A stretch of DNA of 37,194 nt. It comes from Deltaproteobacteria bacterium (GTDB lineage: Bacteria; Myxococcota_A; Polyangia; Polyangiales; Houyiibacteriaceae). The position numbers and the translations under genes were made by a program. Each line of letters opens with the position of its first letter. The stretch's first letter is position 1. The notes under the pieces were generated by a model. It worked only from the letters and a program-made list of their open reading frames with translations, searched no databases and had not been told where the DNA came from. The DNA is taken from contig JAFDAJ010000012.1 of NCBI GenBank assembly GCA_019313915.1, positions 1-37,194 on the forward strand, given 5' to 3'. Positions 1,710-35,114 of the stretch are shown piece by piece.

Positions 1710-4355
1710 GTGTCAGTCGAGATGCCGCGGGTATTGAAGCGAATCGAATCGGTCGTTCCTCGAAGGGCGTCCGGCTATGGTGGCAAGGCTCGCGGCTTGG
1801 CTGCGCTCGCTCGAGCAGGGTTCCCGGTTCCGGCTGCGTACGCGATGCCCGGCTGGGTCGGCGATTCGTTCTTTTCGAGCGTGCTGGAGATCGAGGACCG
1901 TCCGAGGGCGCTTCTGAATAGTCCGTATGTGCCCGAGGCACGCTTGCAGTCGATCGCTGAGCGCGTCCGCGAAGCGACGCTTCCGCAGGACGTCGTTCGA
2001 AGCGTCAGCGACGCGCTGCTCGCCCTGACCAACGAAGGTGCGACTAGCTTTGCGGTTCGCTCGTCGGCGATGCACGAAGACCAGGAGGGAGCGTCAGCTG
2101 CGGGAATGCACTCGACCCTGCTCAACTTGATGCGCGAGGATGAAGTTCTCAACGCCATCAAGGTCTGTTGGTCGAGCCTCTTTCGTCCCCGCGTGCTTTC
2201 GTACTTGCGAGCGCTTGGCGAGGACATCCCGGTTTCGGTCGGGGTCGTGATTCAGGCCATGGTGCCGACCGAGGTTTCCGGTGTTCTGTTCACCGCCAAT
2301 CCGCTTACCGGCGATGCGGGCGAGGTCGTCATCAACGCCGCATACGGGCTCGGTTCTGCGGTCGTCGATGGCCGCGTGACCCCCGACACCTATCGGGTCG
2401 ACAAAGCCACCGGTCAGCTACGCGACCAAATCATCGGTGACAAAGCCCAACAAACCGTGCTCGAACGCTCAGGCGGTGTTCGTGAAGTCGCGGTCGCCCG
2501 GGCGCAGCGGGAACGCCCGGCGCTCAGCGAGCAGCAGCTCCTGCAATTGACTGACCTCGCGACCCGCATAGAAAGTCACTTCGGAGATCCCCGCGACGTC
2601 GAATGGGGCATCGCCGAGCATCAGATCTACGTCCTTCAAGCGCGTCCGGTCGTCGTTCCGAGCACAGGCAGCCGTCGGGGCTCCCGACGCGACCGTCCAT
2701 GGGACCGACGAAAGATCGTCTGGAGCAACGCGAACGTCGGAGAGGCTCTGCCCGGTGTCGTCACCCCTTTGACCTGGTCCGTTCTCAGCCAGTTCAGTGA
2801 CCTCGGCTTCCGCCGAGCCTTTGGCGCCATGGGCTGCACGGTTCCGCGCGACGCGGAGCTCGTGGGGGATTTCCGCGGACGCATTTACATCAATCTGACC
2901 GAGTTCAGCTCGGTCATGTCGCAGGTTCCTTGGATTCATCCGTCGACTCTGGTGCGGCTCGGTGGGGGTCAGTATGCCTCCGAGCTCGACGAGGTCGTGG
3001 CCGAGCGGAGCTCGACCGGGTTTTTTCTGCGCCTGCCACAAACCGTTTCCCGATACGTCCGTGAGAACTTCCGCCTTCAAGCGCGCGTCGATGACTTCCA
3101 GTCGTATTTCTCGGACGAGCGCATGCGGATCAACGGAATCGACCCGCGGCTTCTCGAACCGAGCGGCCTCGACCGCATGCTTGGCGACGTCGAACACCTG
3201 TTGGACGAAACCGGCTCGATCATGCTGACCGCCTACGCAAACCTGCTCACGGCAGTGCTCGTGTTGATCGGCGTATTGCGCACATTCGCCCGAGATCAGG
3301 GTTCAGGCTTCTACCGTGAGTTGCTCTCCGGGTTGCAGGACGTTGCCAGCGCACGCCCGGGCTTCGTCCTGCGGCATGTCGCGGAGCTTGCCCGCGACGA
3401 GCCCGAAGTGGCGGAGCGCATCCGTACTGCCAAGCTCTCGGAGCTCACCGTGGCGGGCCTGCCCGCAGGCCCCACGCGTGATGCCTTGCGGCGCTTCGTC
3501 GAAGACTACGGATACCGCGGGATTCGCGAAGCCGAGATCGCCGCGCCGCGATGGTCTGAAGATCCGACGGTCATGTTCGCCGCGATCCGTTCGCATCTTT
3601 CGAGTCCGACCGACCTCGACCATCGCGTTCGCGATCTGCGGCGCACGCGCGAAGAGGCCGAGGAGAGGTTTAAGAAGAGCGTTCCGTTCCCGCTTCGACC
3701 TTCCGTGACGAAGTTGCTCCACGTGGTTCGACGCTTCACTCGGATGCGCGAGGATTTGCGGGGTCACGTGGTGGAGGTGCTCGGCATGTTTCGTCGCGTC
3801 GCACTCGAGGCCTCGCGCCGGATCGAAGCGCGTGAGCCCGAAGCAGGTCCGGACGCAGCGTTCTTCCTGACGCTCGCGGAGGTTCGTCGCGTCTTCCATG
3901 ACGAGAACGAGCGGGTTGCGATTCGCGTGCAGCGGCGTCGGCTGGAGTACGAACGCAACCAAGCGCTCCCCGAGCCACCCTCCACGTTCGTAGGGTTCCC
4001 CCCAGATGATGCCGGTGTTGCTTCGACATCCAAGCGTCTGCGAGGTCTCGCTGCGAGCGGCGGCGTGGCCGAGGGCAGGGTGCGGATCCTTCGAGATCCG
4101 TCCCAGGCGGCGGACTTCAAGCGCGGCGAGGTGCTCGTCGTTGCCGCTGCCGACACAGGGTGGGCTCCGCTCTTCCTAGCGGCGTCCGGGGTAGTGACCG
4201 AGCTCGGTGGTCCTCTTTCTCACGCGGCGATCATCTTGAGAGAGTACGGGGTTCCTGCAGTGGTCAATGTGACGAATGCCACGCGGTCGCTTCGTGACGG
4301 CGACCTGATTCGCCTCGACGGCGATGTCGGAACGGTGGAGAGACTGGGTGTCTGA
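1710..4355 (+). CDS. PEP-utilizing enzyme / PEP synthase-like, rifampin phosphotransferase (Rph)-like architecture
   Basis: N-terminal ATP-grasp (GYGGKARGLAALARAGFPVPAAYAMP ... DPRDVEWGIAEHQIYVLQARPV), middle VWSNANVGEALPGVVTPLTWSVL, C-terminal phosphohistidine domain TELGGPLSHAAIILREYGVPAVVNV. Confidence 0.85.
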   Translation: MSVEMPRVLKRIESVVPRRASGYGGKARGLAALARAGFPVPAAYAMPGWVGDSFFSSVLEIEDRPRALLNSPYVPEARLQSIAERVREATLPQDVVRSVSDALLALTNEGATSFAVRSSAMHEDQEGASAAGMHSTLLNLMREDEVLNAIKVCWSSLFRPRVLSYLRALGEDIPVSVGVVIQAMVPTEVSGVLFTANPLTGDAGEVVINAAYGLGSAVVDGRVTPDTYRVDKATGQLRDQIIGDKAQQTVLERSGGVREVAVARAQRERPALSEQQLLQLTDLATRIESHFGDPRDVEWGIAEHQIYVLQARPVVVPSTGSRRGSRRDRPWDRRKIVWSNANVGEALPGVVTPLTWSVLSQFSDLGFRRAFGAMGCTVPRDAELVGDFRGRIYINLTEFSSVMSQVPWIHPSTLVRLGGGQYASELDEVVAERSSTGFFLRLPQTVSRYVRENFRLQARVDDFQSYFSDERMRINGIDPRLLEPSGLDRMLGDVEHLLDETGSIMLTAYANLLTAVLVLIGVLRTFARDQGSGFYRELLSGLQDVASARPGFVLRHVAELARDEPEVAERIRTAKLSELTVAGLPAGPTRDALRRFVEDYGYRGIREAEIAAPRWSEDPTVMFAAIRSHLSSPTDLDHRVRDLRRTREEAEERFKKSVPFPLRPSVTKLLHVVRRFTRMREDLRGHVVEVLGMFRRVALEASRRIEAREPEAGPDAAFFLTLAEVRRVFHDENERVAIRVQRRRLEYERNQALPEPPSTFVGFPPDDAGVASTSKRLRGLAASGGVAEGRVRILRDPSQAADFKRGEVLVVAAADTGWAPLFLAASGVVTELGGPLSHAAIILREYGVPAVVNVTNATRSLRDGDLIRLDGDVGTVERLGV

Positions 4356-5106
4356 CGCCGAAGACGCGGCACCCGAAATCATCCACCATGACGAGCAACT
4401 GCTCGTCGTCCACAAACCGCCGGGGTTGCCGACCACGGCTCCGACTTCAACGGAGCCCTGCCTTGCGCGTTGGGTTCGCGAGCGGTTTCCGGACCTTCAG
4501 GCGCACGCGACGTCGAGGCTCGACTCCCAAGTCAGTGGCCTGGTGACCTTCGCGCTCACCCGCGACGCTAATCGGTGCCTTCTCGACGCGCGGCGCGCCG
4601 GGACTTACGAGCGCGTCTATCTGGGTATCACGATTCGTGGCGTGTCCCTCGACCAAGGGGAGTGGTGCTGGCCGATTTCAATTGATCCGCGCAACCCCAA
4701 GCGCCGGATCGCGGGGCCGGGTCGCGGCGAGCGTGAAGCCCTCACCCGATACGAAGTCGCCGCACGCACGCCCAGCGCCACGCTTCTTCGGCTCAGACCC
4801 GCGACGGGACGGACTCATCAACTACGCGTACATGCAGCCGAAGCCGGTGCGCCGCTGTTCGGCGACTCCTTGTACCAAGGGGAACGGCGCAAAGTCTTGC
4901 CCGAAGGAAGCGTCGTCACCGCGCGCCGTGTGATGCTTCACTGCGCCCGGGTGAGCTTTCCATTGGTTACCGGTGGTACCGGTGGCGCGCTCGCCGGGGA
5001 GCGCTGTACCGACGGCCAGCGCATGTGCCTCGACGCGCCGGCGCGACCGGACATGGATCGCGTGTGGCGGGCGCTCGGCGGGGCCTCAGCAGACCTTCAG
5101 GCCTGA
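4324..5106 (+). CDS. RluA-family pseudouridine synthase
   Basis: VVHKPPGLPT, SRLDSQVSGLVTFA (catalytic Asp), RLRPATGRTHQLRVHAAEAGAPLFGDSLY; overlaps the 3' end of the upstream gene. Contains a 30-bp repeat unit at 4981-5010. Confidence 0.93.
   Translation: MSERWRDWVSDAEDAAPEIIHHDEQLLVVHKPPGLPTTAPTSTEPCLARWVRERFPDLQAHATSRLDSQVSGLVTFALTRDANRCLLDARRAGTYERVYLGITIRGVSLDQGEWCWPISIDPRNPKRRIAGPGRGEREALTRYEVAARTPSATLLRLRPATGRTHQLRVHAAEAGAPLFGDSLYQGERRKVLPEGSVVTARRVMLHCARVSFPLVTGGTGGALAGERCTDGQRMCLDAPARPDMDRVWRALGGASADLQA
4981..5010 (+). repeat. 30-bp dispersed palindromic element, copy in the RluA-family gene
   Basis: ggtggcgcgctcgccggggagcgctgtacc, translated GGALAGERCT. Confidence 0.85.
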
Positions 5107-14772: not shown

Positions 14773-15174
14773 GTGCCGTCGGAGATGAAGACCATTCGCG
14801 TCGTGGCTGCTCTCGTAGAGCGTGACGGGCGGTATTTGATCACCCAACGTCGCGAGAACGCCGTGCTGCCCTTGCTCTGGGATTTTCCGGGCGGTCGCGT
14901 GGAAGAAAATGAGAGCGACGAGGCGGCCTTGGCGCGCGAAGTGGACGAACGCCTCGGTGCAAGCGTCGAAGTGGGCCAGCTCATTTCGTTCGTGAATCAT
15001 CCGTACGAGAAGTACGCCGTCGATTTGTACCTCTACGAGTGCACGCTGCTTAGCGACCAACTCCATTGCCGCGCGGTTACGGAGTACGCATGGGTGACGT
15101 CGAAGGAGATGGAATCGTACTCCTTCACCCCGGTCGATGAGGTCTCGATGAGCAAGCTCCTCGGCGAAGGGTGA
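14773..15174 (+). CDS. NUDIX hydrolase
   Basis: Nudix-box-like GGRVEENESDEAALAREVDERLGA; RVVAALVERDGRYLITQRRENAVLPLLWDFPGGR. Confidence 0.9.
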   Translation: MPSEMKTIRVVAALVERDGRYLITQRRENAVLPLLWDFPGGRVEENESDEAALAREVDERLGASVEVGQLISFVNHPYEKYAVDLYLYECTLLSDQLHCRAVTEYAWVTSKEMESYSFTPVDEVSMSKLLGEG

Positions 15175-15206
15175 CCGGTGGTGCGCTCGCCGGAGAGCGC
15201 TGAGCA
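15175..15206 (+). repeat. 30-bp dispersed palindromic element, intergenic copy between NUDIX and PilZ genes
   Basis: ccggtggtgcgctcgccggagagcgctgagca directly after the NUDIX stop. Confidence 0.9.
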
Positions 15207-15209
15207 GCG

Positions 15210-16232
15210 CTATACGTCGTAGAAGATCGGTGGGCGCCTGCGGATGAAGCGAAGCACCAAGTCTCGCGCTTCGGCCGATAACCCCTCGAATTGAATCCCC
15301 ATGCCGGGCTCGGATTCCGACATGAAGTCCATCGGGTCGCGCACGAAGCGAACGTAGCCGTCGCACTCGAAGTCGAAACCCCCGGGCAACGTCACCAGCA
15401 TCTTGACCGATGTGTCTTTCGGGAACGCTTCGTACGTGGCGAGGAACACGCCACCGTGCGCGATTTCGCCACTGAAGCCCACGTAGAAGTTGGACTGCGT
15501 CGTCGCGCCCAGGTTCGCCTCCACCGGTTGTCGTTCGCCGACCGGAATGGGTGCGGGTGGTGGCAGCATCGAAGTCGGGATCGGCGCCGGCGCCCCGGAC
15601 AGCGGCCGGATCGAAGGGCGGCCCGAGGGAGAAAGAGGTCTCTGAGACGGCGGTGCGCTTGCGGGCGGCCTACTCGCCGGTGCGACGCTCGCCGGAGAGC
15701 GCTGAGACGGTGGTGCGCTCGCCGGAGGTCTCTGCGATGGCGGTGCGCTCGCCGGAGGTCTCTGCGATGGCGGTGCGCTCGCCGGCGGTGCGCTCGCCGG
15801 AGAGCGCTGTGATGCCGGGCGCTGTGATGCCGAGCGCTGTGACGCCGGGCGCTGTGATGCCGGGCGCTGTGATGCCGGGCGCCGCGAACGAGGCCCCGGC
15901 CTGCCGCTCGGCTTGTTCGTCAGTGGAAAGAGGATGCTGATGACGTCGGCGATGCTCTCCGTCGCTGTTTGCGCGCCCGCGTGCTCGCTCTTCACATCCT
16001 GAAGCAGCGCCAGCGTTTGGCTGAGCGTACCGAGCGCGTTCTTCACGCAGGTCTTGCCGTCCGGCTCGGTCGAGGCGTACTCCGCCTCGAAAAGCGCGCC
16101 GACGGACTTCGCGACGTTCTGGATGATGCCGAGCACCTCCTGCGGAACATCTTCGTCTTGCTGCAGTGCTTCGAGTGCTTTGCCGAGCGCTTCACGAGCT
16201 TGTCGCGCTTCGGCGGCCGATGAGTAGCCCAT
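15210..16232 (-). CDS. PilZ-domain (TIGR02266-like) protein with Pro/Ser/Ala/Gln-rich repeat linker
   Basis: C-terminal NFYVGFSGEIAHGGVFLATYEAFPKDTSVKMLVTLPGGFDFECDGYVRFVRD...GMGIQFEGLSAEARDLVLRFI; central low-complexity ASQRPASQRS...PPASAPPSQR linker. Confidence 0.8.
   Translation of the reverse strand: MGYSSAAEARQAREALGKALEALQQDEDVPQEVLGIIQNVAKSVGALFEAEYASTEPDGKTCVKNALGTLSQTLALLQDVKSEHAGAQTATESIADVISILFPLTNKPSGRPGPRSRRPASQRPASQRPASQRSASQRPASQRSPASAPPASAPPSQRPPASAPPSQRPPASAPPSQRSPASVAPASRPPASAPPSQRPLSPSGRPSIRPLSGAPAPIPTSMLPPPAPIPVGERQPVEANLGATTQSNFYVGFSGEIAHGGVFLATYEAFPKDTSVKMLVTLPGGFDFECDGYVRFVRDPMDFMSESEPGMGIQFEGLSAEARDLVLRFIRRRPPIFYDV
15637..15890. repeat. tandem array of 30-bp and 15-bp units derived from the dispersed palindromic element, inside the PilZ gene
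   Basis: Units such as ggtctctgcgatggcggtgcgctcgccgga (twice), gagcgctgagacggtggtgcgctcgccgga, then five ~15-bp units gcgctgtgatgccgg. Confidence 0.9.
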
Positions 16233-16784: not shown

Positions 16785-17144
16785 ATGTCTCCGTCCAAAA
16801 GCTCGAAAATCCTATTCTGTCCCTTCTGCCGCGACGGCTTCGAGGGGCGCACCGAATGTCCGGAGCACGAGCTCACGCTGGTCCCCATCGACAAGCTCCC
16901 TCGCAAAGCCGAGGCCACGCTGCAGAGCGTGACCCTCTTCGTCGACCCGCGTTTGGGCCGAGGCGCGGTGTTGTTCGGCGCAGCGCTGCCTTTGATCTAC
17001 ACCACACGCCGAATCGGGCTGGTTGCCGAGAGCTACACCTCGAACGTCGAGTGGCTGTGGGGGTTATGGCTCATGGCGGCCGGTCTCGTGGTCGCCGCGT
17101 TTGGCAGCCGCCGGCTGGGAGCCACCCGCCGTGACGATGACTAG
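16785..17144 (+). CDS. small zinc-ribbon + transmembrane conserved hypothetical protein
   Basis: ILFCPFCRDGFEGRTECPEHELTLVPID (Cys/His cluster) followed by two hydrophobic helices. Confidence 0.65.
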   Translation: MSPSKSSKILFCPFCRDGFEGRTECPEHELTLVPIDKLPRKAEATLQSVTLFVDPRLGRGAVLFGAALPLIYTTRRIGLVAESYTSNVEWLWGLWLMAAGLVVAAFGSRRLGATRRDDD

Positions 17145-18181
17145 GCCGCGCCGGGGAGAGTGGGGCGGAAGATGTAACCCTGCTGTTGTACGACGCAGAC
17201 TCGATTCGGTCCGGCGACCCGGGCCCGGGCCACCGCGATGCTTGCCGCGTCCAGCAGCTCACTGTGCGAGCGAATGCTGCCGCTTGGATACAGCCCGACC
17301 CCAATTGAGATGGTCAGGTCGATCTGGATGGTGCTGGGCACGGCGCTCTGCGGTGAGCGCGCCGCAGTCTCAGCGCTCTCCGGCGAGCGCGCCACCGGTT
17401 CAAACGGTCGGAGCGCGACTTCGGACACGATGCGGTCGGCCAACGTGAGTGCTCTTGCAGGGCGGGTGTTGGGCAGCAGGAGTCCAAACTCCGCGGTCCT
17501 GAATTGCGCTGCGATGTCGGTTGCACGGATTGTGCGTTGCACTCGCTTGGACACCTCGTCGAGAACATCCCGGGCGATTTCAGCGCCGTGCTCTGACACC
17601 AGCTCTCGGAAGTCATCGACCGCGAGGATGCAACAAGCGAGCGGGTCCAAATGACGTTGGGCTTCGTCGAACTCGATCGCGATGCATTCGTGAAAGAAGC
17701 GGTGGTCGGGCAGCTTGCGGAGCTCGTCGTGCATGGGCGTGTAGCGGAGCTCGTTCTTGGCGAACTGCACGTCATCGTGCGCTCGCTTCACCCGAAGCAT
17801 GTTCTCGATGCGGGCTAGGAGCTCGGAGTCTTCGAACGGTTTCGTCACGTGATCGTCCGCGCCTGTGCGCAGCCCTTGGACCCGTGGGCTCAGGTCCCCC
17901 GGCGCCGCGAGAATGACGACCGGGACGAAGCGATCCTTGGTGATAGTCTTGACGACTCTGCAGGTATCGATGCCATTCAATCCGGGCATATCGACGTCGA
18001 GCACGACGAGATCGACGGGCTGTGCGCGAACCGCGTCGATCGCCTTCTGGCCGTCGTTTGCCGGGACAACCACGAGGCCGCGCGCCCGAAGCAGTTGAGA
18101 TATGCGTTCGCACGTCGCACGATCATCATCGGCGACAACCACCACCGCTTTCGGAAATGGACGGGCACTCCCCACTCCCAC
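17141..18181 (-). CDS. response regulator with receiver and degenerate GGDEF domain
   Basis: VVVVADDDR, LVVLDVDMPGLNGIDTC, TKPFEDSELLARI receiver motifs; GGDEF-like region RATDIAAQFRTAEFGLLLPNT. Confidence 0.88.
   Translation of the reverse strand: MGVGSARPFPKAVVVVADDDRATCERISQLLRARGLVVVPANDGQKAIDAVRAQPVDLVVLDVDMPGLNGIDTCRVVKTITKDRFVPVVILAAPGDLSPRVQGLRTGADDHVTKPFEDSELLARIENMLRVKRAHDDVQFAKNELRYTPMHDELRKLPDHRFFHECIAIEFDEAQRHLDPLACCILAVDDFRELVSEHGAEIARDVLDEVSKRVQRTIRATDIAAQFRTAEFGLLLPNTRPARALTLADRIVSEVALRPFEPVARSPESAETAARSPQSAVPSTIQIDLTISIGVGLYPSGSIRSHSELLDAASIAVARARVAGPNRVCVVQQQGYIFRPTLPGAA
17337..17396 (-). repeat. two tandem 30-bp palindromic units in the receiver-GGDEF gene
   Basis: Coding strand ggtggcgcgctcgccggagagcgctgagac + tgcggcgcgctcaccgcagagcgccgtgcc, translated (V)ARSPESAETAARSPQSAVP. 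Confidence 0.9.
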
Positions 18182-20582: not shown

Positions 20583-21584
20583 GTGACGCAGTCCTCCTCC
20601 TCGCAGCGCGGTGGCCTTGCCAGCATGCGCGTCGAACGCGGCGTTACGGTCGCGGATTTGCTCGCCGAGCCTCGCCTGCAAGCCATCATGCGTTTGGTTG
20701 CCGGCGAAGAGGGACGGGACCGCGCGATCCACCATCCCCGGGTGCAAAAGCCGGGGCTCGCTCTGGCGGGTCATACCCACGGGGTCGTCCCCACCCGAGT
20801 TCAGATTCTGGGCGAGACCGAGCTCACTTTCCTCGAGGCGCTGTCTTCCGAAGAACAACTCGAGCGGGCGAGTGTGCTGTTCGGCCTTGGGCTATCGCTC
20901 GTGGTCGTCACACGGGGCGCCGAGCCCCCGGTCGCGCTTCTCCAGGCGGCAAGGGAAACCTCCACGCCTCTGGCCGTCGCCGAACCCCGATCGAGTCGCG
21001 CGATTCAGACGCTTCATCGGGTGCTGGACGGCATCCTCGCGCCTTCCGAGACCCGTCACGGAGTCCTGATGGACGTGCACGGCGTCGGCACGTTGCTGCT
21101 GGGACCAAGCGGAATCGGCAAGAGCGAATGCGCGCTCTTTCTCGTCGAGCGTGGGCATCGGTTCGTCGCCGACGACCAGGTGATTTTGTCGCTGCTTCCG
21201 TCCGAGCAAATCATCGGCCGCGCGCCGACTTTGCTGCGGAATCACTTGGAGGTGCGCGGCATCGGCATCATCAACGTCCGCGACTTGTTTGGCGCCAACG
21301 CCGTCCGCTTGGAAAAGACGCTGCAGCTAGTGGTCGAGATTTGCCTCTGGAATGATGACGAGCCCTATGATCGCCTTGGCCTCGACGAGTCCACATTGGA
21401 TATCTTGGGCGTGCCGATTCCCATGTTGCGAATACCGGTCCGGCCAGGGCGCAACATGGCCGTGATCTTGGAGGTCGCGGCGCGCAACCACATCCTCAAG
21501 GCCGCTGGCCAGCACGGCGCGCAGAAGTTCATCAGCACGTTGATGGGACACATGGAAGATCCGGGCTCGGAGCCTGGGCAATGA
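20583..21584 (+). CDS. hprK: HPr kinase/phosphorylase
   Basis: GVLMDVHGVGTLLLGPSGIGKSECALFLVERGHRFVADDQV Walker A; LEVRGIGIINVRDLFG; LGVPIPMLRIPVRPGRNMAVILEVAARN. Confidence 0.96.
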   Translation: MTQSSSSQRGGLASMRVERGVTVADLLAEPRLQAIMRLVAGEEGRDRAIHHPRVQKPGLALAGHTHGVVPTRVQILGETELTFLEALSSEEQLERASVLFGLGLSLVVVTRGAEPPVALLQAARETSTPLAVAEPRSSRAIQTLHRVLDGILAPSETRHGVLMDVHGVGTLLLGPSGIGKSECALFLVERGHRFVADDQVILSLLPSEQIIGRAPTLLRNHLEVRGIGIINVRDLFGANAVRLEKTLQLVVEICLWNDDEPYDRLGLDESTLDILGVPIPMLRIPVRPGRNMAVILEVAARNHILKAAGQHGAQKFISTLMGHMEDPGSEPGQ

Positions 21585-22510
21585 GCGGGTCTCCGCACGT
21601 CGTCGTCATCACCGGACTGTCGGGCGCGGGACGAACTAGTGCCCTGCGGGTGCTCGAAGATGCGGGTTTCTTTTGTGTCGACAACCTTCCGCCAGGTTTG
21701 GCGCCAGACCTGCTGGGGCTCGTCAGTCGGGAAGCGAAGTCGGCGGCGCGCTCGCCGGAGAGCGCTGTTCCGGTGGTGCGCTCGCCGGAGAGCGCTGTTC
21801 CAGAGCGCGTCGGCTTGGGTATCGACGTTCGCACCGGCGCCTTTCTGAGCGGAGCGGAGGAGACGATTTCGGCGCTCGAGGCTTCCGGGCATCGCGTGCA
21901 AGTGATCTTTCTAGACTGCGCCGACGACGTCCTCGTTCGGCGATTTAGCGAAACCCGCAGGCCCCACGCACTCGCCCGGGCCGGAGATTTGCACGGCGCC
22001 ATCGCTCGGGAGCGCGAACGGCTCGCGGGGCTCCGTGCGCGTGCCGACATCGTGATCGACACCACCGATTTCAGCGTCCACGACCTCCGACATCAGCTCA
22101 TCGACTACATTGGCCGCGACGCAGAACGGCCTTCGATGGTGGTTCGGTTGCTCTCCTTTGGCTTCAAGTACGGGGTCCCCGTGCACGCCGATTTGGTATT
22201 CGATCTGCGGTTTCTGCCGAACCCGCACTTCGTCGAAGCGCTACGGCCCAAGACGGGGTTGGACCCGGACGTGTCCGCGTATGTGATGGAGGCCCCCGAA
22301 ACAAAGGAGCTCCTTCGACACCTGCGGCCGCTGCTCGACTATTCGCTCCCGCACTATGCGCGCGAAGGGAAGGCCTATCTGACCGTGGCGCTCGGATGCA
22401 CCGGCGGGAGACACCGCTCCGTGGCGATGGCTGAAGAGCTTGGGCGTCAGCTCGGCGACGCCCACGAGGTGGTCGTGGTGCATCGGGACGCGCAGCGGGC
22501 TGCCACGTGA
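21581..22510 (+). CDS. rapZ: RNase adapter protein RapZ (YvcJ family)
   Basis: ITGLSGAGRTSALRVLEDAGFFCVDNLPPGLAPDLL; FGFKYGVPVHADLVFDLRFLPNPHFVEALRPKTGLD; AYLTVALGCTGGRHRSVAMAEELGRQL. Contains two repeat units at 21742-21801. Confidence 0.97.
   Translation: MSGSPHVVVITGLSGAGRTSALRVLEDAGFFCVDNLPPGLAPDLLGLVSREAKSAARSPESAVPVVRSPESAVPERVGLGIDVRTGAFLSGAEETISALEASGHRVQVIFLDCADDVLVRRFSETRRPHALARAGDLHGAIARERERLAGLRARADIVIDTTDFSVHDLRHQLIDYIGRDAERPSMVVRLLSFGFKYGVPVHADLVFDLRFLPNPHFVEALRPKTGLDPDVSAYVMEAPETKELLRHLRPLLDYSLPHYAREGKAYLTVALGCTGGRHRSVAMAEELGRQLGDAHEVVVVHRDAQRAAT
21742..21801 (+). repeat. two tandem 30-bp palindromic units in rapZ
   Basis: ggcggcgcgctcgccggagagcgctgttcc + ggtggtgcgctcgccggagagcgctgttcc, translated AARSPESAVPVVRSPESAVP. 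Confidence 0.95.
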
Positions 22511-25024: not shown

Positions 25025-25911
25025 TGCGGTTGACTCGGCAATATAGCAAGAACCCCAGGGAAGTGGACGGTCTCCGCGAACATCTGGACGCCCTGCTCGC
25101 CAGCTCCGACGCCAAGTCTACTCGAAGGCGAGACCCTGTCGATTTCGTCCACCGCTACGAGGAGCCTCGTGACCAGGAGATCGTGGGGCTGCTCGCCTCG
25201 AGCCTTGCCTTTGGTAACGTGGTCGCTGCCCGACGCAGCATCGATCGCGTGCTCACCGCGCTCGGCCCAGAGCCGGCAGTCACGGTTGAGGGTGCCAAGC
25301 CCGCGGAGCTTCGCCGCCGCCTCCGAGGGTTTGTCCACCGCATCTATCGGGACGAGCATCTTGCGTCGGTGCTCTGGCGGGCTGGGGGGCTGCTACGTGA
25401 GCACGAGACCCTCGGCAACGCCTTCACCCAGTTCCACGAGGCCAGCGGTGGCGACTTTCGGGAAGGGCTGGCCCGTTTCGCCGACGCGCTGCGCGGGGAT
25501 ACGACCAGTCGCAGCTTGCGTCACCTCGTCAGCGATCCTCGCGCCGGAAGCGCGTGTAAGCGCCTCGTCCTCTACGCGCGATGGATGGTTCGCCCTGCCG
25601 ATGGGGTCGACCTCGGCCTGTGGCCAATTGCGCCCTCCGAGCTCGTGATTCCTGTCGACACTCATATTCATCGCATCAGCCGCAACCTCGGACTGACGCA
25701 TCGCCGCACCGCAAGTTGGGCGACCGCCGAAGAGATCACCGCTGCGCTACGCCAATTCGATCCCGAAGATCCGGTCAAGTACGACTTTGCGCTTTGCCAC
25801 CTCGGCGTGTCGAGGGAGTGCCCAAGCCGCCCCGACCCGGCCAAGTGCGAACGCTGCGTTCTGCAAAGCGTATGCAGTGTCTGGAAGCCCGAGCGCCGCA
25901 ACGGGGCATGA
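25024..25911 (+). CDS. TIGR02757/DUF2400 family protein
   Basis: DPVDFVHRYEEPRDQEIVGLLASSLAFGNVVAARRSIDRVL; KRLVLYARWMVRPADGVDLGLW; C-terminal CPSRPDPAKCERCVLQSVC. Start uncertain (GTG at 25063 possible). Confidence 0.88.
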   Translation: MRLTRQYSKNPREVDGLREHLDALLASSDAKSTRRRDPVDFVHRYEEPRDQEIVGLLASSLAFGNVVAARRSIDRVLTALGPEPAVTVEGAKPAELRRRLRGFVHRIYRDEHLASVLWRAGGLLREHETLGNAFTQFHEASGGDFREGLARFADALRGDTTSRSLRHLVSDPRAGSACKRLVLYARWMVRPADGVDLGLWPIAPSELVIPVDTHIHRISRNLGLTHRRTASWATAEEITAALRQFDPEDPVKYDFALCHLGVSRECPSRPDPAKCERCVLQSVCSVWKPERRNGA

Positions 25912-25925
25912 CAACCCGTAAGGCG

Positions 25926-28511
25926 TCAGCGAAGGAACCCGGTGATCTTGGGCTCTAGCGCGTGCAGGTCGGCGACACTCTCGACGCCCTCGCCACGTTC
26001 GAGGATGTCTCCGTTCAGCTGGATGAGGCGGTAGTCTTGCAACGCCTTGAGGGCGGTCTCCAGCTTGAGCTTCGATAGCGACTCTCGACGCTCGATTTCG
26101 CCAGCGAGATACATCTGCTGTCCCAACGCGAGCGTACGCTTGTACCAATCCTTCTTCGGAATCGGGCCATCGAGGACGATTTCCGCGCCGCGCAGTGCGA
26201 GGAGGTAGCTCTCGAAAAAGGTCTGGAGCATCGCCGCGTATCGTTCTAGCCGGTGACGCATCGCGCCTTCGGTGGCTTGTGCGTACCCGTCGCGGACTTC
26301 GATCTCGCCGTCCTTGGCCATGTCACGGAGCGCGTCTTGGAAGATGTCGTCGAAGGTCGCGTCGGTTCGATACATGAACTCGTGCTTGAAGAGCTTCGAC
26401 AGCTGCTGGACCCGGTCGTTCAGGCGCGTGATGTCGACCCACTGCTCGGTGTCCACCAACAGCGCGGCCGAAATCAAACCGCGCGGCACGAAGAAGTGAA
26501 TGATCGTGTTTTGGTAGTACTCGAGCGCGATCCGCCGTTCGGAATCGATCGTGTAGATCGGCTCCGGACCCGTGTCGTGTGCGATGATGAGACGGGCGTC
26601 TAGGAACAGATGCAACGCCTCGTCGATCGTGTCCGCGCGAATGCGGCCGTCTCCGATGCGGAGCTGCTGTGCGATCCGAGCCTGCATGCCATCCAGCGTG
26701 GAGATCAGGTCCTCACATGCGCTCAGCAGAGAAGCCCTGGTCATGCCGCGTTTCTGGTGGCTCAACAACGCGGTGGCCACCAGCGCAGCCGGTGTCACCA
26801 CGGTGACCTCGTTGATCGAGTACATCACCTTGTGAGCCAGCGCGCGAACCGCGTTCTTCTTTTGCTCGGGTGTGAGGGCGTCCATGTCTTGGAGTTCGCC
26901 GCCAGCGCGCTCCATCGTCTCCTTTTGGAATTCGTCGAAGTCGATGATCTCGCCGAATTGCACGTACAGTCGACCCCACTTCGACCGGAGGATGCTCGAG
27001 CTCTTGATCAGGTCGCCCACGTTCTCCGACTGTTTGTCGCCGCCCGAGAGCTCGTGGACGAAAGAACGCTCCTCGATGATGCGCTCGTACCCGATCGAAA
27101 CCGGGACGAGCTTGACCTTGGTGCCGTGCAGCTTCGAGGCCGATTCGTAAAGCATCGACAGCAGGCCGTATTTCGGCGGCAGTGCCTTGCCGGTGCGGGA
27201 GCGGCCACCTTCTAAGAAGAACTCGATGGTGAAGCCTTCAACCAGCAGCTTACGAATATACGCCTCGACGAGTGCAGGGTACAGCGTGTCCCCGTGGAAG
27301 CTGCGGCGGATGAAGAAAGCGCCGCCCCGGCGTAGCCAAACTCCAATCGGCCAAAAGCTGAGATTGTCACCCGCCGCGATTATCGGCGCCATCATTGCGT
27401 GGCCGTAGAGCCTGTCGCTCAAGACCAAATAGTCGATGTGGCTTTTGTGACTGGGCAGCAGGACCAGCGAGGCGTCGCGGGCGGCCTCACGGACGCGCTC
27501 GAGGCCCTCCGTGTCGAAGTCGACGCCGTCATACATCTTGGACCAAACCCAGGAGAGGAACCGGTGCGAGACATCCACCACGAAGAGGCTCTGCTTGGCG
27601 CAAAGGCGCCGAAGCTGCTTGCGAGCCACTTTCTCCGCTTTGGCGTACGAAATGTTCTCTTCACCGGCGTAGCGCTCGATGTGCGCCCGGACTCTCGGGC
27701 TGCGCAGGAGCTCGTCTTGGAGACGCGCGCTGCTCTTCTTCATCGGGCCGATGATGATCGCCCGATCGCGCTCCATGCGTCGAAGCAGCGCGTACCGAGC
27801 TTTGTTGGCGGCCTGCGCATCGGTCAGGTCGGGATTGTTGGCGATGAGCTCCTGAAGATTGAAAGGCTCTCCAGAGCAGAGCTTTGCGTCCCGATAATTC
27901 AGCAAGAACTGGAAGAACACGCGCAACCGGCCTGGCCACTGCACCGGACCGAACAACAGGTCGAGCGGGCCCGGGCGCGCGGTCCCCGCTCGTTTGCTCC
28001 ATACGAACGTCTGTGGAACCAGCAGGATTGGTTGCGAGCACGTTCGCTGCTTTGCCACGAGTGTTTCGATCAGGTCGATGTCGAGCTCACGGCCACGGCG
28101 CGCCTGGCTTCCGAACTTCGGCGGGCGCCTGAGGAACAACAATGCGCTGTACCCATCGCCGACGGTTTGCTCCAAGGCTTCGGCTTCCGGGATCTGCCGC
28201 CGCAGGCTCAACCGGCGTTCACCCTTGCCGAAGGGCTCGAGAATCCACAGCCCGAGGTCATTGACGAACCGCACCAAGGGCAGGCCGAATTTTTTCAGCA
28301 AGAAGTCGAGACAGAGGAAGTCCAAGAACGAAAGCGATCGCATCACATAGACGACCACCCCCTTGCTGGCGGCCTCTCGCACGCCGCGGCTCCAGTTTTC
28401 GTCCACGCGGATGTGGGCGAAGAATCGCCGGTAGAGCCATCGCAAAATCGCGTTGGGCGCGTAGGGCGACGGCGTGGGTGAGCGCCGCGCAAGCTCCGGC
28501 ATGTTCGTCAT
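25926..28511 (-). CDS. plsB: glycerol-3-phosphate 1-O-acyltransferase
   Basis: LLPSHKSHIDYLVLSDRLYGHAMMAPIIAAGDNL, GAFFIRRSFHGDTLY, FTIEFFLEGGRSRTGKALPPKYGLLSML. Confidence 0.96.
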   Translation of the reverse strand: MTNMPELARRSPTPSPYAPNAILRWLYRRFFAHIRVDENWSRGVREAASKGVVVYVMRSLSFLDFLCLDFLLKKFGLPLVRFVNDLGLWILEPFGKGERRLSLRRQIPEAEALEQTVGDGYSALLFLRRPPKFGSQARRGRELDIDLIETLVAKQRTCSQPILLVPQTFVWSKRAGTARPGPLDLLFGPVQWPGRLRVFFQFLLNYRDAKLCSGEPFNLQELIANNPDLTDAQAANKARYALLRRMERDRAIIIGPMKKSSARLQDELLRSPRVRAHIERYAGEENISYAKAEKVARKQLRRLCAKQSLFVVDVSHRFLSWVWSKMYDGVDFDTEGLERVREAARDASLVLLPSHKSHIDYLVLSDRLYGHAMMAPIIAAGDNLSFWPIGVWLRRGGAFFIRRSFHGDTLYPALVEAYIRKLLVEGFTIEFFLEGGRSRTGKALPPKYGLLSMLYESASKLHGTKVKLVPVSIGYERIIEERSFVHELSGGDKQSENVGDLIKSSSILRSKWGRLYVQFGEIIDFDEFQKETMERAGGELQDMDALTPEQKKNAVRALAHKVMYSINEVTVVTPAALVATALLSHQKRGMTRASLLSACEDLISTLDGMQARIAQQLRIGDGRIRADTIDEALHLFLDARLIIAHDTGPEPIYTIDSERRIALEYYQNTIIHFFVPRGLISAALLVDTEQWVDITRLNDRVQQLSKLFKHEFMYRTDATFDDIFQDALRDMAKDGEIEVRDGYAQATEGAMRHRLERYAAMLQTFFESYLLALRGAEIVLDGPIPKKDWYKRTLALGQQMYLAGEIERRESLSKLKLETALKALQDYRLIQLNGDILERGEGVESVADLHALEPKITGFLR

Positions 28512-32901: not shown

Positions 32902-35114
32902 CGAACGGACAGGGTGCCAGCGTTGACCCGATTCTCCTCATCGCCGGGCCCTGACTTCACTTCGAGCCGCTTGCCTCCGCTGAACAGGCCGATGTAGATG
33001 ACGTACTCGCCGACCTGGTAATTCGCGGGAACCGTGAGCTCTTGTGTGTCGACGATCACGTCTCCCTTCTCCCAGAGCTTGGTCGGGTATCGCCCGCCAA
33101 CGGCCACGTGGTCACCGTTGAGCCTCATTCCATGGCCATCGATGTGTACGAAGACCTTGTACCCGCTTGGGACTTTCCCTAGGACTCGCCAGTACCAGGT
33201 CACCTGAAAGCTCTGGCCTGCGCCGACCGAGTCTCCTTCGGGAAGGTCGAGGTCGTAGCCCACGAGCTCGACGCGGTCTTCGAAGTTGGCGCCTACCGAG
33301 TGCTGTGCTTCGGGAACGTCCCTCAAAACCGCGTTTGCGATGAAGCTCTCGTTGGGCCGCCCGTCGATCGGCTTGGCCGCGAGCAAGAGCAATCGCGCAC
33401 TGCGGGCATCGGCCACGTACAAGTGCTCGCCCGTCTCACGGCGATAGGCACGGTTGAGCCCCGGCAGGTCGTCGGCTCGGATTACCGCCCAACGTTGCCC
33501 CCTCTCCTGCAAGAAGCTCACGAGGTCGGCCTGCGCGGTGATCTCCTCGATCGGCGCGTTGGTGTAGTAGTGCGCGGCGGTCGACGGCAACTTGTACGAG
33601 GCCAGAGGGGAGGGTGTTCCGCCTGCCAGCTCTTCGTACGCGTCGTACACCGGCTTGGGGGAGAAGTGCTGGCTCAGCGCGGGCTGGAACGAAAGGGACA
33701 CGAAGGCCCCAACCGCCAATCCTCCCCCGAGCGCGGGGAAGATGCGTCGATCTCCAAGCCGCCCATACGCGTACCGTAGCCATGGGAGCCCGAAGACCAA
33801 GGCCACGAGCACGACGGGAACGAGCAGTGCCACGCGACCCACGCGGACCACGATCGACGCGACACCAAGGTCGAGCACGAAGCACATCAGTCCGAAGGAG
33901 AAACAGGCGGCGAGGAGGAGCGCACCGAGGAGGAGCCACCCACGTTGCGCCCCGCCGACATCCCACTGGGCGCGGAACCATTGGACGTTGGCGCGCGGCT
34001 CGGGTCGTGCAATCCCCTCGTGGCTCACTAGCGTGAGGCAAAGCAGGGCGCCCGCGATTGAAAACAGGAGGGCCCACGCACCTCTTGGATTGTACACCTC
34101 TGGGACATTCAATCCCTCCACCGCCAAGGACCGAAGCGGGCTGTCGGGGTACAACGCGTAGTCGCGGATTAGCAGGCCGACCAGCAGAGCGACCACCACC
34201 GCTGCTGGCCACCGGACGACGCGCTCACGGCTTACCTCGGCCAGCCAAATCGAGACCAGCCCGGCGAGTGGAACGAGCGCTAGATACGGCGGCGTGCCGT
34301 AACGCGAGGCGAAGACCGTCCACGAAACGAATGCAAAGGCCGCCCAGAGCACGAGAACCCACGCGACGCTCTGTGCGTCTGCGCTTCGCGTCGGCCGTGG
34401 GATCAGTGCCCAAATTGCAGCTACCGGGAGGGCGGCGCTCCATGGCGCGAACCCGTGGAAGACGAGCTCCGCGGCCTTGTCGAAAGTTGGCGGGTCGCCT
34501 CCAATCGCGCCTCCTCCGAGCCAGAGACTGAAGCCGGGATCATCCATGGAGGCCGCTCGGAGCACGCCCAACACGAGGACGGTGGCGGCGACCGGGAATA
34601 GCCAGCGACCCACTCGGTTGCCGCGCCCGGTGTCGTCTGAGAGCAAGCTCCAGGCTGCGACCGCAAGAATCGGGGGCAGGGGACCGAGCAGCACTCCGCT
34701 AGTGTGCGTGCTGACCGCCAAGCCGATCCCGAGAAGGACGTAGCGCGAAAGTGTTCGCGGAGTGCTGTCCGAGCCCCCGCAAGCGGCAATGGCAGCCAGA
34801 CCGACCCAGGTCTGCGCGAAGACTGCGACCGAATCCCCCATGAGCAGTCGGGCATTGAGCAAGAACAGCGGGGTGGATGCGATCACGGCGATTGCGATGA
34901 CGCCGGCCCGCTGGCTGAAGTGCCTGCGCAGCAATAGAAACGCCAACAAACACGTTAGCCACCCGGCGACCACGCCAGGGAGCCGGCCAACGCGCCCACC
35001 GTCGGCAGCGTCGAGCTCCCACGGGTCCCAGAATCCGTGCGACCAGATCCCCCAAACGGTCAGCAACAGGGCGACGGTGACCACCAACCGTTCGAGTACG
35101 ACGGACCGGTTCAT
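32898..35114 (-). CDS. GT39/ArnT-like membrane glycosyltransferase with shortened first periplasmic loop
   Basis: WSHGFWDPWELDAADGGRVGRLPGVVAGWLTCLLAFLLLRRHFSQRAGVIAIAVIASTPLFLLNARLLMGDSVAVF; multiple TM helices; C-terminal soluble domain. Confidence 0.78.
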   Translation of the reverse strand: MNRSVVLERLVVTVALLLTVWGIWSHGFWDPWELDAADGGRVGRLPGVVAGWLTCLLAFLLLRRHFSQRAGVIAIAVIASTPLFLLNARLLMGDSVAVFAQTWVGLAAIAACGGSDSTPRTLSRYVLLGIGLAVSTHTSGVLLGPLPPILAVAAWSLLSDDTGRGNRVGRWLFPVAATVLVLGVLRAASMDDPGFSLWLGGGAIGGDPPTFDKAAELVFHGFAPWSAALPVAAIWALIPRPTRSADAQSVAWVLVLWAAFAFVSWTVFASRYGTPPYLALVPLAGLVSIWLAEVSRERVVRWPAAVVVALLVGLLIRDYALYPDSPLRSLAVEGLNVPEVYNPRGAWALLFSIAGALLCLTLVSHEGIARPEPRANVQWFRAQWDVGGAQRGWLLLGALLLAACFSFGLMCFVLDLGVASIVVRVGRVALLVPVVLVALVFGLPWLRYAYGRLGDRRIFPALGGGLAVGAFVSLSFQPALSQHFSPKPVYDAYEELAGGTPSPLASYKLPSTAAHYYTNAPIEEITAQADLVSFLQERGQRWAVIRADDLPGLNRAYRRETGEHLYVADARSARLLLLAAKPIDGRPNESFIANAVLRDVPEAQHSVGANFEDRVELVGYDLDLPEGDSVGAGQSFQVTWYWRVLGKVPSGYKVFVHIDGHGMRLNGDHVAVGGRYPTKLWEKGDVIVDTQELTVPANYQVGEYVIYIGLFSGGKRLEVKSGPGDEENRVNAGTLSVR

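Follow-up and report, generated by a model that had tools for sequence, protein, structure and literature searches.

In one group of uncultured myxobacteria, near-palindromic 30-bp units that make up part of the linker of a PilZ-type signalling protein recur, mostly in frame, in unrelated genes both close by and far away, and in gaps, which suggests that a commonplace repeat in a protein can become the source of a DNA element that spreads. Our preferred reading, held with some confidence but not with a strong one, is that the PilZ linker gave birth to the element, and that one junction between its two half-units (A-B, described below) then spread in one clade of the genus. The stretch of DNA analysed, hereafter the window (37,194 nucleotides), is contig C221 of a 4.41-Mb draft genome of 448 contigs (G000), and it was compared with 18 further species genomes of the same genus, mostly drafts.

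The PilZ gene and its repeat array

15210 to 16232, minus strand: gene for a PilZ/TIGR02266-type protein of 340 residues, with an N-terminal part, a Pro/Ser/Ala/Arg linker and a C-terminal PilZ domain
15573 to 15908, minus strand: the linker (residues ~109-220, ~112 residues)
15640 to 15803, plus strand: 30-bp units of the array (the A+B palindrome and its variants)
15804 to 15882, plus strand: about five B-derived units of 15 bp, GCGCTGTGATGCCGG

In a domain model search, the C-terminal domain of the protein matched TIGR02266/PilZ, although the PilZ score exceeded the Pfam cut-off only with the domain scanned alone and the TIGR02266 score was below its cut-off. Tandem Repeats Finder delimited two arrays: one with a 30-bp period at positions 15686-15789, with 3.5 copies and 90% matches, and one with a 15-bp period at 15804-15882, where GCGCTGTGATGCCGG is repeated 5.3 times with 93% matches. 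The initial annotation had described 30-bp units followed by some five 15-bp derivatives encoding SQRPPASAPP / PASQR, which these arrays bear out, as does the translation into (PA)SQR and SQR(P/S)PASAPP. The 30-bp palindrome, GGYGGYGCGCTCGCC-GGAGAGCGCTGTNCC, consists of two 15-bp halves, A (GGTGGTGCGCTCGCC) followed by B (GGAGAGCGCTGTNCC), B approximating the reverse complement of A. Translated in the frame of PilZ, half A gives ASAPP and half B gives SQRSP. The unit length is a multiple of three, and stop codons are absent in all six frames.

The PilZ array has the features of a coding minisatellite, i.e. tandem units, a unit length divisible by three and a unit number varying between relatives. 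Linker length ranges from 88 to 175 residues across the array-bearing species and array length differs between them, array lengths in the draft genomes being uncertain because several contigs are interrupted, or contain N, within the array (G007, G013 and G014). Another short tandem repeat of ~15 bp is located at 33911-33940 of the window, in another gene region.

Abundance and distribution of the element

With up to three mismatches, the 20-base core GCGCTCGCCGGAGAGCGCTG has 10 matches in the window vs. 0.08 expected from shuffles. The PilZ repeat had been claimed to be the same sequence as a palindromic element found elsewhere in the window, in the opposite orientation; both points agree with the present data, the PilZ array being antisense relative to the copies in rapZ, the GGDEF gene and the RluA-like gene. 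As for the rest of the 4.4-Mb genome, the core (up to two mismatches) occurs at one further place only, in two copies, and a reversed control pattern gave zero matches in any genome scanned.

The element is nearly confined to one genus. When one genome per species was searched for 84,980 species, the 20-base pattern was found in 18 stretches, 14 of them in records that match genomes of the genus and four elsewhere, and the named exact matches are draft assemblies of metagenome-assembled Myxococcales/Deltaproteobacteria. Likewise, 12 of the 58 genomes scanned had matches, and ten of these 12 belong to the genus. Pattern matches beyond the genus concern G047, G051, Paenibacillus, Denitromonas and a relative, and one proteobacterium; those of G047 and G051 stand in contexts without the 30-bp flanks. 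Copy counts depend on the mismatch thresholds. Weak model hits with E above ~1e-4, namely trkA-like coding sequence in G008 and G014, were rejected as chance.

Dispersed copies and their empty sites

Four dispersed sites are present in the window:

4973 to 5011, plus strand: one copy in the RluA-like pseudouridine synthase gene (4324-5106, plus strand), read as GGALAGERCT
15174 to 15207, plus strand: one copy in the nudix/PilZ gap, overlapping the stop codon of the nudix gene (14773-15174)
17337 to 17398, minus strand: two copies in the response regulator-GGDEF (RR-GGDEF) gene (17141-18181, minus strand), read as VARSPESA/AARSPQSA
21738 to 21801, plus strand: two copies in rapZ (21581-22510, plus strand), read as SAARSPESAVPVVRSPESAVP

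As a whole, 13 distinct dispersed sites were found, most of them intragenic, with 0 to 5 sites per genome and 1 to 4 tandem units. Orthologs in the congeners provided clean empty sites, from which net insertions of usually 15, 30, 60 or 90 bp, in frame, were deduced. Between the VDNLPP and GIDVRT motifs of RapZ, the interval is 57 bp in 15 empty orthologous loci and 117 bp in the window's genome (exactly +60), while G017 has 72 bp (+15), corresponding to half B only. The RR-GGDEF interval is 51 bp in empty orthologs, 66 bp in G007, 111 bp in the window's genome (+60) and 141 bp in G014 (+90); for mannose-6-phosphate isomerase (PMI), 12 genomes share an interval of 21 bp and G017 has 51 bp (+30). 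Since these net insertions are exact unit multiples, no added target duplication is evident at RapZ, RR-GGDEF and PMI. The RluA-like site shows a duplication, of 9 bp (ACCGGTGGT): the interval is 75-81 bp in empty orthologs and 120 bp in the window's genome, with a net gain of 39 bp (30 + 9). In G012 it reaches 117 bp, through an insertion of 36 bp at the same place, carrying the same CGGGGAG variant in a different reading frame.

Several other features were observed around these sites. In G012, a (CCGTCG)n run that encodes SPSPSPSPS stands ahead of the RluA-like element (L226:4990-5045, G012:C79). Shortly upstream of the element copy in the RluA-like gene of the window, at 4916-4958, a 22-bp stretch is tandemly duplicated (2 copies, 82%), and the RluA-like ortholog of G009 (L216, G009:C143:3942-4682) has one TAG within the matched stretch. 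The PilZ-nudix gap contains a ~110-bp stem-loop (GTGCGCGGATCTTTTT...GACCACAAGAAAAAATCT...CGCACAC) in G008, G014, G017 and G007 and a short form of it in G004, G016 and G018, in place of which the window's genome has the 30-bp element (positions compared: window 15175-15209, L126:7906-7925, L118:4515-4534, L128:7243-7262 and L041:518-537). In G014, which is a single contig (C1), RR-GGDEF (461147-462208) and PilZ (897316-897642) are 436 kb apart vs. ~1 kb in the window, and a run of N inside the G014 PilZ gene suggests a scaffolding join there.

Concerning the remaining sites, a copy pair was found in the DUF501 gene on contig C335 of the window's genome (L006:1264-1790; C335 ~25817-26343), beside the loss of ~38 conserved residues and a frame change. 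This gene is probably disrupted, and the coincidence indicates that insertion is not always harmless; it is the only frame-disrupted case. The DUF501 genes of three congeners (G007, G012 and G014) also carry the element. G017 also carries the element in hrcA and before a glycosyltransferase domain, G007 in the gene for a YoaA-type helicase and in a gap, G004 between divergent genes in a promoter region, and G014 within a protein of low complexity. The element is in frame in RapZ, RR-GGDEF, the RluA-like enzyme, PMI, DUF501 (G007 and G012), HrcA and the YoaA-type helicase, so that conserved proteins such as RapZ, the GGDEF enzyme, the pseudouridine synthase and HrcA have gained 5-30 foreign residues. 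Four reading frames (+1, +2, -1 and -2) are used by the dispersed copies; the other two, which would encode the Arg-rich peptides CARRRAL and YSALRRAH, were not encountered in any recognised gene.

Age of the linker

The initial annotation had also taken the low-complexity region of the PilZ protein to be new and to have been seeded by insertion of the repeat. This proposal was contradicted by the congeners lacking the element, which already have Pro/Ser/Ala linkers of similar length: the finding that it had itself named as adverse was obtained in G003, G015, G010 and G018, whose linkers of 90-102 residues occupy the same place with no element-like units. A linker is present in all readable PilZ orthologs of the genus, whereas element units are found only in two clades (X and Y, see below). 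No A/B unit was detected in the linkers of G001, G003, G009, G010, G015, G016 and G018 (best match 8-12 of 15 bases), most of these seven being Pro/Ser/Ala-rich. The element-free linkers of G003 and G015 display a significant 15-bp periodicity (z ~6) and tandem S-x-R-P pentapeptides with an exact 5-residue spacing, B' (SQR[PS]x) being a version of this motif; the lag-15 z-score of G014 is an artefact of its N run. The linker and its pentapeptide habit are therefore older than the element, and the direction from linker to element is better supported than the reverse.

Phylogenetic spread and clustering around PilZ

In a tree based on four genes, clade X comprises G000, G017, G004, G007, G008 and G014, and clade Y comprises G005, G013, G011, G002 and G006; the node joining the two clades as sisters is weakly supported (64/73). 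G012, not included in the tree, is similar to clade X, and PilZ was not found in G005. The PilZ array is present in both clades; dispersed copies were found only in X, by a sensitive sequence model as well as by mismatch search. The array is carried by each of the four Y genomes in which PilZ is readable, and every clear match in Y falls in the PilZ gene, including one split over two G013 contigs, with no dispersed copy in this clade. Two of the Y genomes are rated 100% complete; dispersed copies may have been lost from clade Y.

Six of the 13 dispersed sites (RluA-like, nudix/PilZ gap, RR-GGDEF, RapZ, PMI and glycosyltransferase) are located in an 18-kb block around PilZ, which represents 0.4% of the genome (binomial P ~8e-12). 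In the window's own genome, four of the five sites fall within this block. Roughly half of the sites, the repeatedly hit DUF501 gene among them, have no known proximity to PilZ. Both the restriction of dispersed copies to X and their clustering around PilZ point to PilZ as the source, the direction of spread resting on the weakly supported X/Y node and on the clustering.

Junction, hairpin and mobility

Inside PilZ, A-A and B-B junctions together number 50 vs. 35 for A-B. Outside PilZ, 24 A-B copies were found (22 by pattern and two by model), while A-A was seen a single time, adjoining an A-B in the DUF501 gene of G012, and B-B never. This excess of A-B outside PilZ is significant (Fisher P ~4e-7), with the reservation that tandem copies are non-independent. 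The A-B near-palindrome can be drawn as a hairpin with a 6-bp inner stem and a weaker outer stem, with a predicted energy of -11.1 kcal/mol (z -3.2) for the dispersed consensus and -7.6 kcal/mol (z -1.1) for a PilZ-type copy. Folding of an A-A stretch is within chance (z +0.6), whereas a B-B stretch (-6.2 kcal/mol, z -3.2) folds better than shuffles and yet has not spread. A spread of A-B only fits hairpin-dependent copying; it would also fit a mobile A-B element as the starting point, followed by its decay within PilZ.

A TACCGG tail is common to many dispersed copies and absent from the PilZ copies, which indicates that some dispersed copies descend from a lineage that had already separated. 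On average, palindromy is not clearly higher in the dispersed copies (2.43 outer pairs vs. 2.27 for PilZ copies), although the TACCGG form is more palindromic. Within the inner stem, 99% of the cells are paired and four of the six pairs are invariant; stem covariation is not significant, its score not exceeding that of shuffles. The variant GTGCTC/GAGCAC, found in the G007 gap and in hrcA of G017 (L230:1121-1153 and L223:1793-1819), provides the only clear candidate compensatory changes, of unproved independence.

As for the insertion sites, no homology to the element above that of the rest of the gene was found in 24-nt windows at the empty sites of RapZ, RR, the RluA-like gene and PMI, the regular expression used having missed many RapZ loci. 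A link with Y1/RAYT transposases was also considered and rejected: in a search covering the Y1 family only, PF01797 was present in 13 of the 19 genomes irrespective of the element, and absent from G007, which has three dispersed sites. In the multi-contig genomes, contigs bearing PF01797 genes contained no element match, and none lay near PF01797 in G014. Neither intermediates nor transposition events were seen among the genomes compared.

Origin of the element

That a mobile palindromic element of the RPE or REP kind, moved by some enzyme, entered an older insertion-tolerant PilZ linker, where slippage broke it into A/B arrays while the other copies arose by further insertions, seems to us unlikely but far from negligible. 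It would readily account for the dispersed copies all being complete A-B units, for the more palindromic TACCGG-tailed form missing from PilZ, and for the unrelated genes and gaps in which the copies sit. It agrees poorly with the strong clustering around PilZ, with a clade Y devoid of dispersed copies in spite of an array in each of its four readable PilZ genes, with the match between half B and the S-x-R-P pentapeptide tiling element-free linkers, and with Y1/RAYT genes that do not track the element, G007 and its three sites being an example. Misjoined repeats in draft metagenome assemblies, or faulty binning, are a very improbable source of the pattern: even though the named records are such drafts and the array meets a contig end or contains N in several cases, insertions of this kind are found in six congeners, at shared sites, in open reading frames and with differing copy numbers, and the insertion flanks align to empty orthologs. 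Hardly credible at all is an independent origin of the copies through GC-rich codon usage and Pro/Ser/Ala/Arg composition, by chance or under selection for similar linkers. Chance does explain the weakest, trkA-like matches; identical DNA across four different reading frames amounts to a refutation, to which are added the clean net insertions, the excess of core matches over shuffles (10 vs. 0.08) and the empty reversed control.

The origin in the PilZ linker would start from an old coding minisatellite, rich in Pro/Ser/Ala/Arg and presumably disordered, whose period is 5 residues (15 bp). Two unit types, B' (SQR[P/S]x) and A' (ASAPP), would have become established in the ancestor of the two sister clades, and the DNA of the A'/B' junction would have formed a 30-bp near-palindrome capable of folding into a hairpin. 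In one clade, this palindromic junction alone would then have been copied elsewhere, preferentially near PilZ and usually as 1 to 4 tandem units. As the unit is a multiple of three without a stop in six frames, most intragenic copies can survive as short in-frame loops. We infer that PilZ was the donor, and that copying proceeded via single-stranded hairpins with template switching or ectopic repair, not via a transposase. More tentatively, and as a possibility to which we give rather less than even credence, the element may be a transposase-free mobile hairpin born from a linker minisatellite, which delivers 30-bp modules into neighbouring, then distant genes, in any open frame.

The origin of short palindromic repeat families, and whether a transposase is always required, are open questions in the field. 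The present family looks young, with a low copy number, a distribution nearly limited to one genus, empty sites in many relatives and a probable source gene, which makes origin, direction and mechanism testable. It also cautions that low-complexity linkers may donate sequence and not merely receive it.

Comparison with known repeat families

A description of the present element was not found in the literature searched, which covers few subscription papers. REP sequences and REPINs (GTAG- and CGTC-tagged) are hairpin-forming palindromes of 20-40 bp repeated within a genome (PMC3733652, PMC3116915). They lie mainly outside genes, carry tags and are associated with RAYT transposases, whereas the present copies are mostly intragenic, occupy 0-5 sites per genome, and have neither a GTAG/CGTC foot tag nor a link with Y1 genes. 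PARCEL elements are palindromic DNA encoding tandem protein repeats, thought to be shuffled within genomes (PMC2996958). Their motif of 25 residues occurs in unassigned ORFs of many distant taxa, while the present unit of 10 residues is found in nearly one genus, inserted inside conserved genes.

With intragenic minisatellites, the element shares tandem 15/30-bp units in a low-complexity linker, in numbers that differ between species. To our knowledge, however, ordinary coding minisatellites stay in their own gene; the palindromic junction described here is also found in others. MITEs have terminal inverted repeats with a target-site duplication and are mobilised by a transposase in trans; what bears on them here is the 9-bp duplication at the RluA-like site, set against the exact unit multiples at RapZ, RR-GGDEF and PMI.

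Among known kinds, the Rickettsia palindromic element (RPE) comes nearest, in the way the element works and with no claim of kinship. RPEs are palindromic repeats in unrelated protein genes, often in frame, which leave the host protein readable (PMC10969869, PMC3733652), and the present element is likewise inserted in frame within unrelated protein genes. RPEs are ~150 bp in length (PMC10969869) and carry an end tag, CGTC (PMC3733652); here, the unit of 30 bp is made from two 15-bp halves in 1-4 tandem copies, with net insertions of 15-90 bp, and the dispersed copies end in TACCG, TTCCG, AGCAG, AGACT and similar sequences without the CGTC tag, CGTC being seen beside the stem only in the PilZ-array copies. 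On account of this tag and of the length, the element is said to work like an RPE and is not classed as one. It also differs from RPEs in that a probable source gene is visible: if the origin proposed here is true, the source gene of a protein-coding palindrome family could be named.
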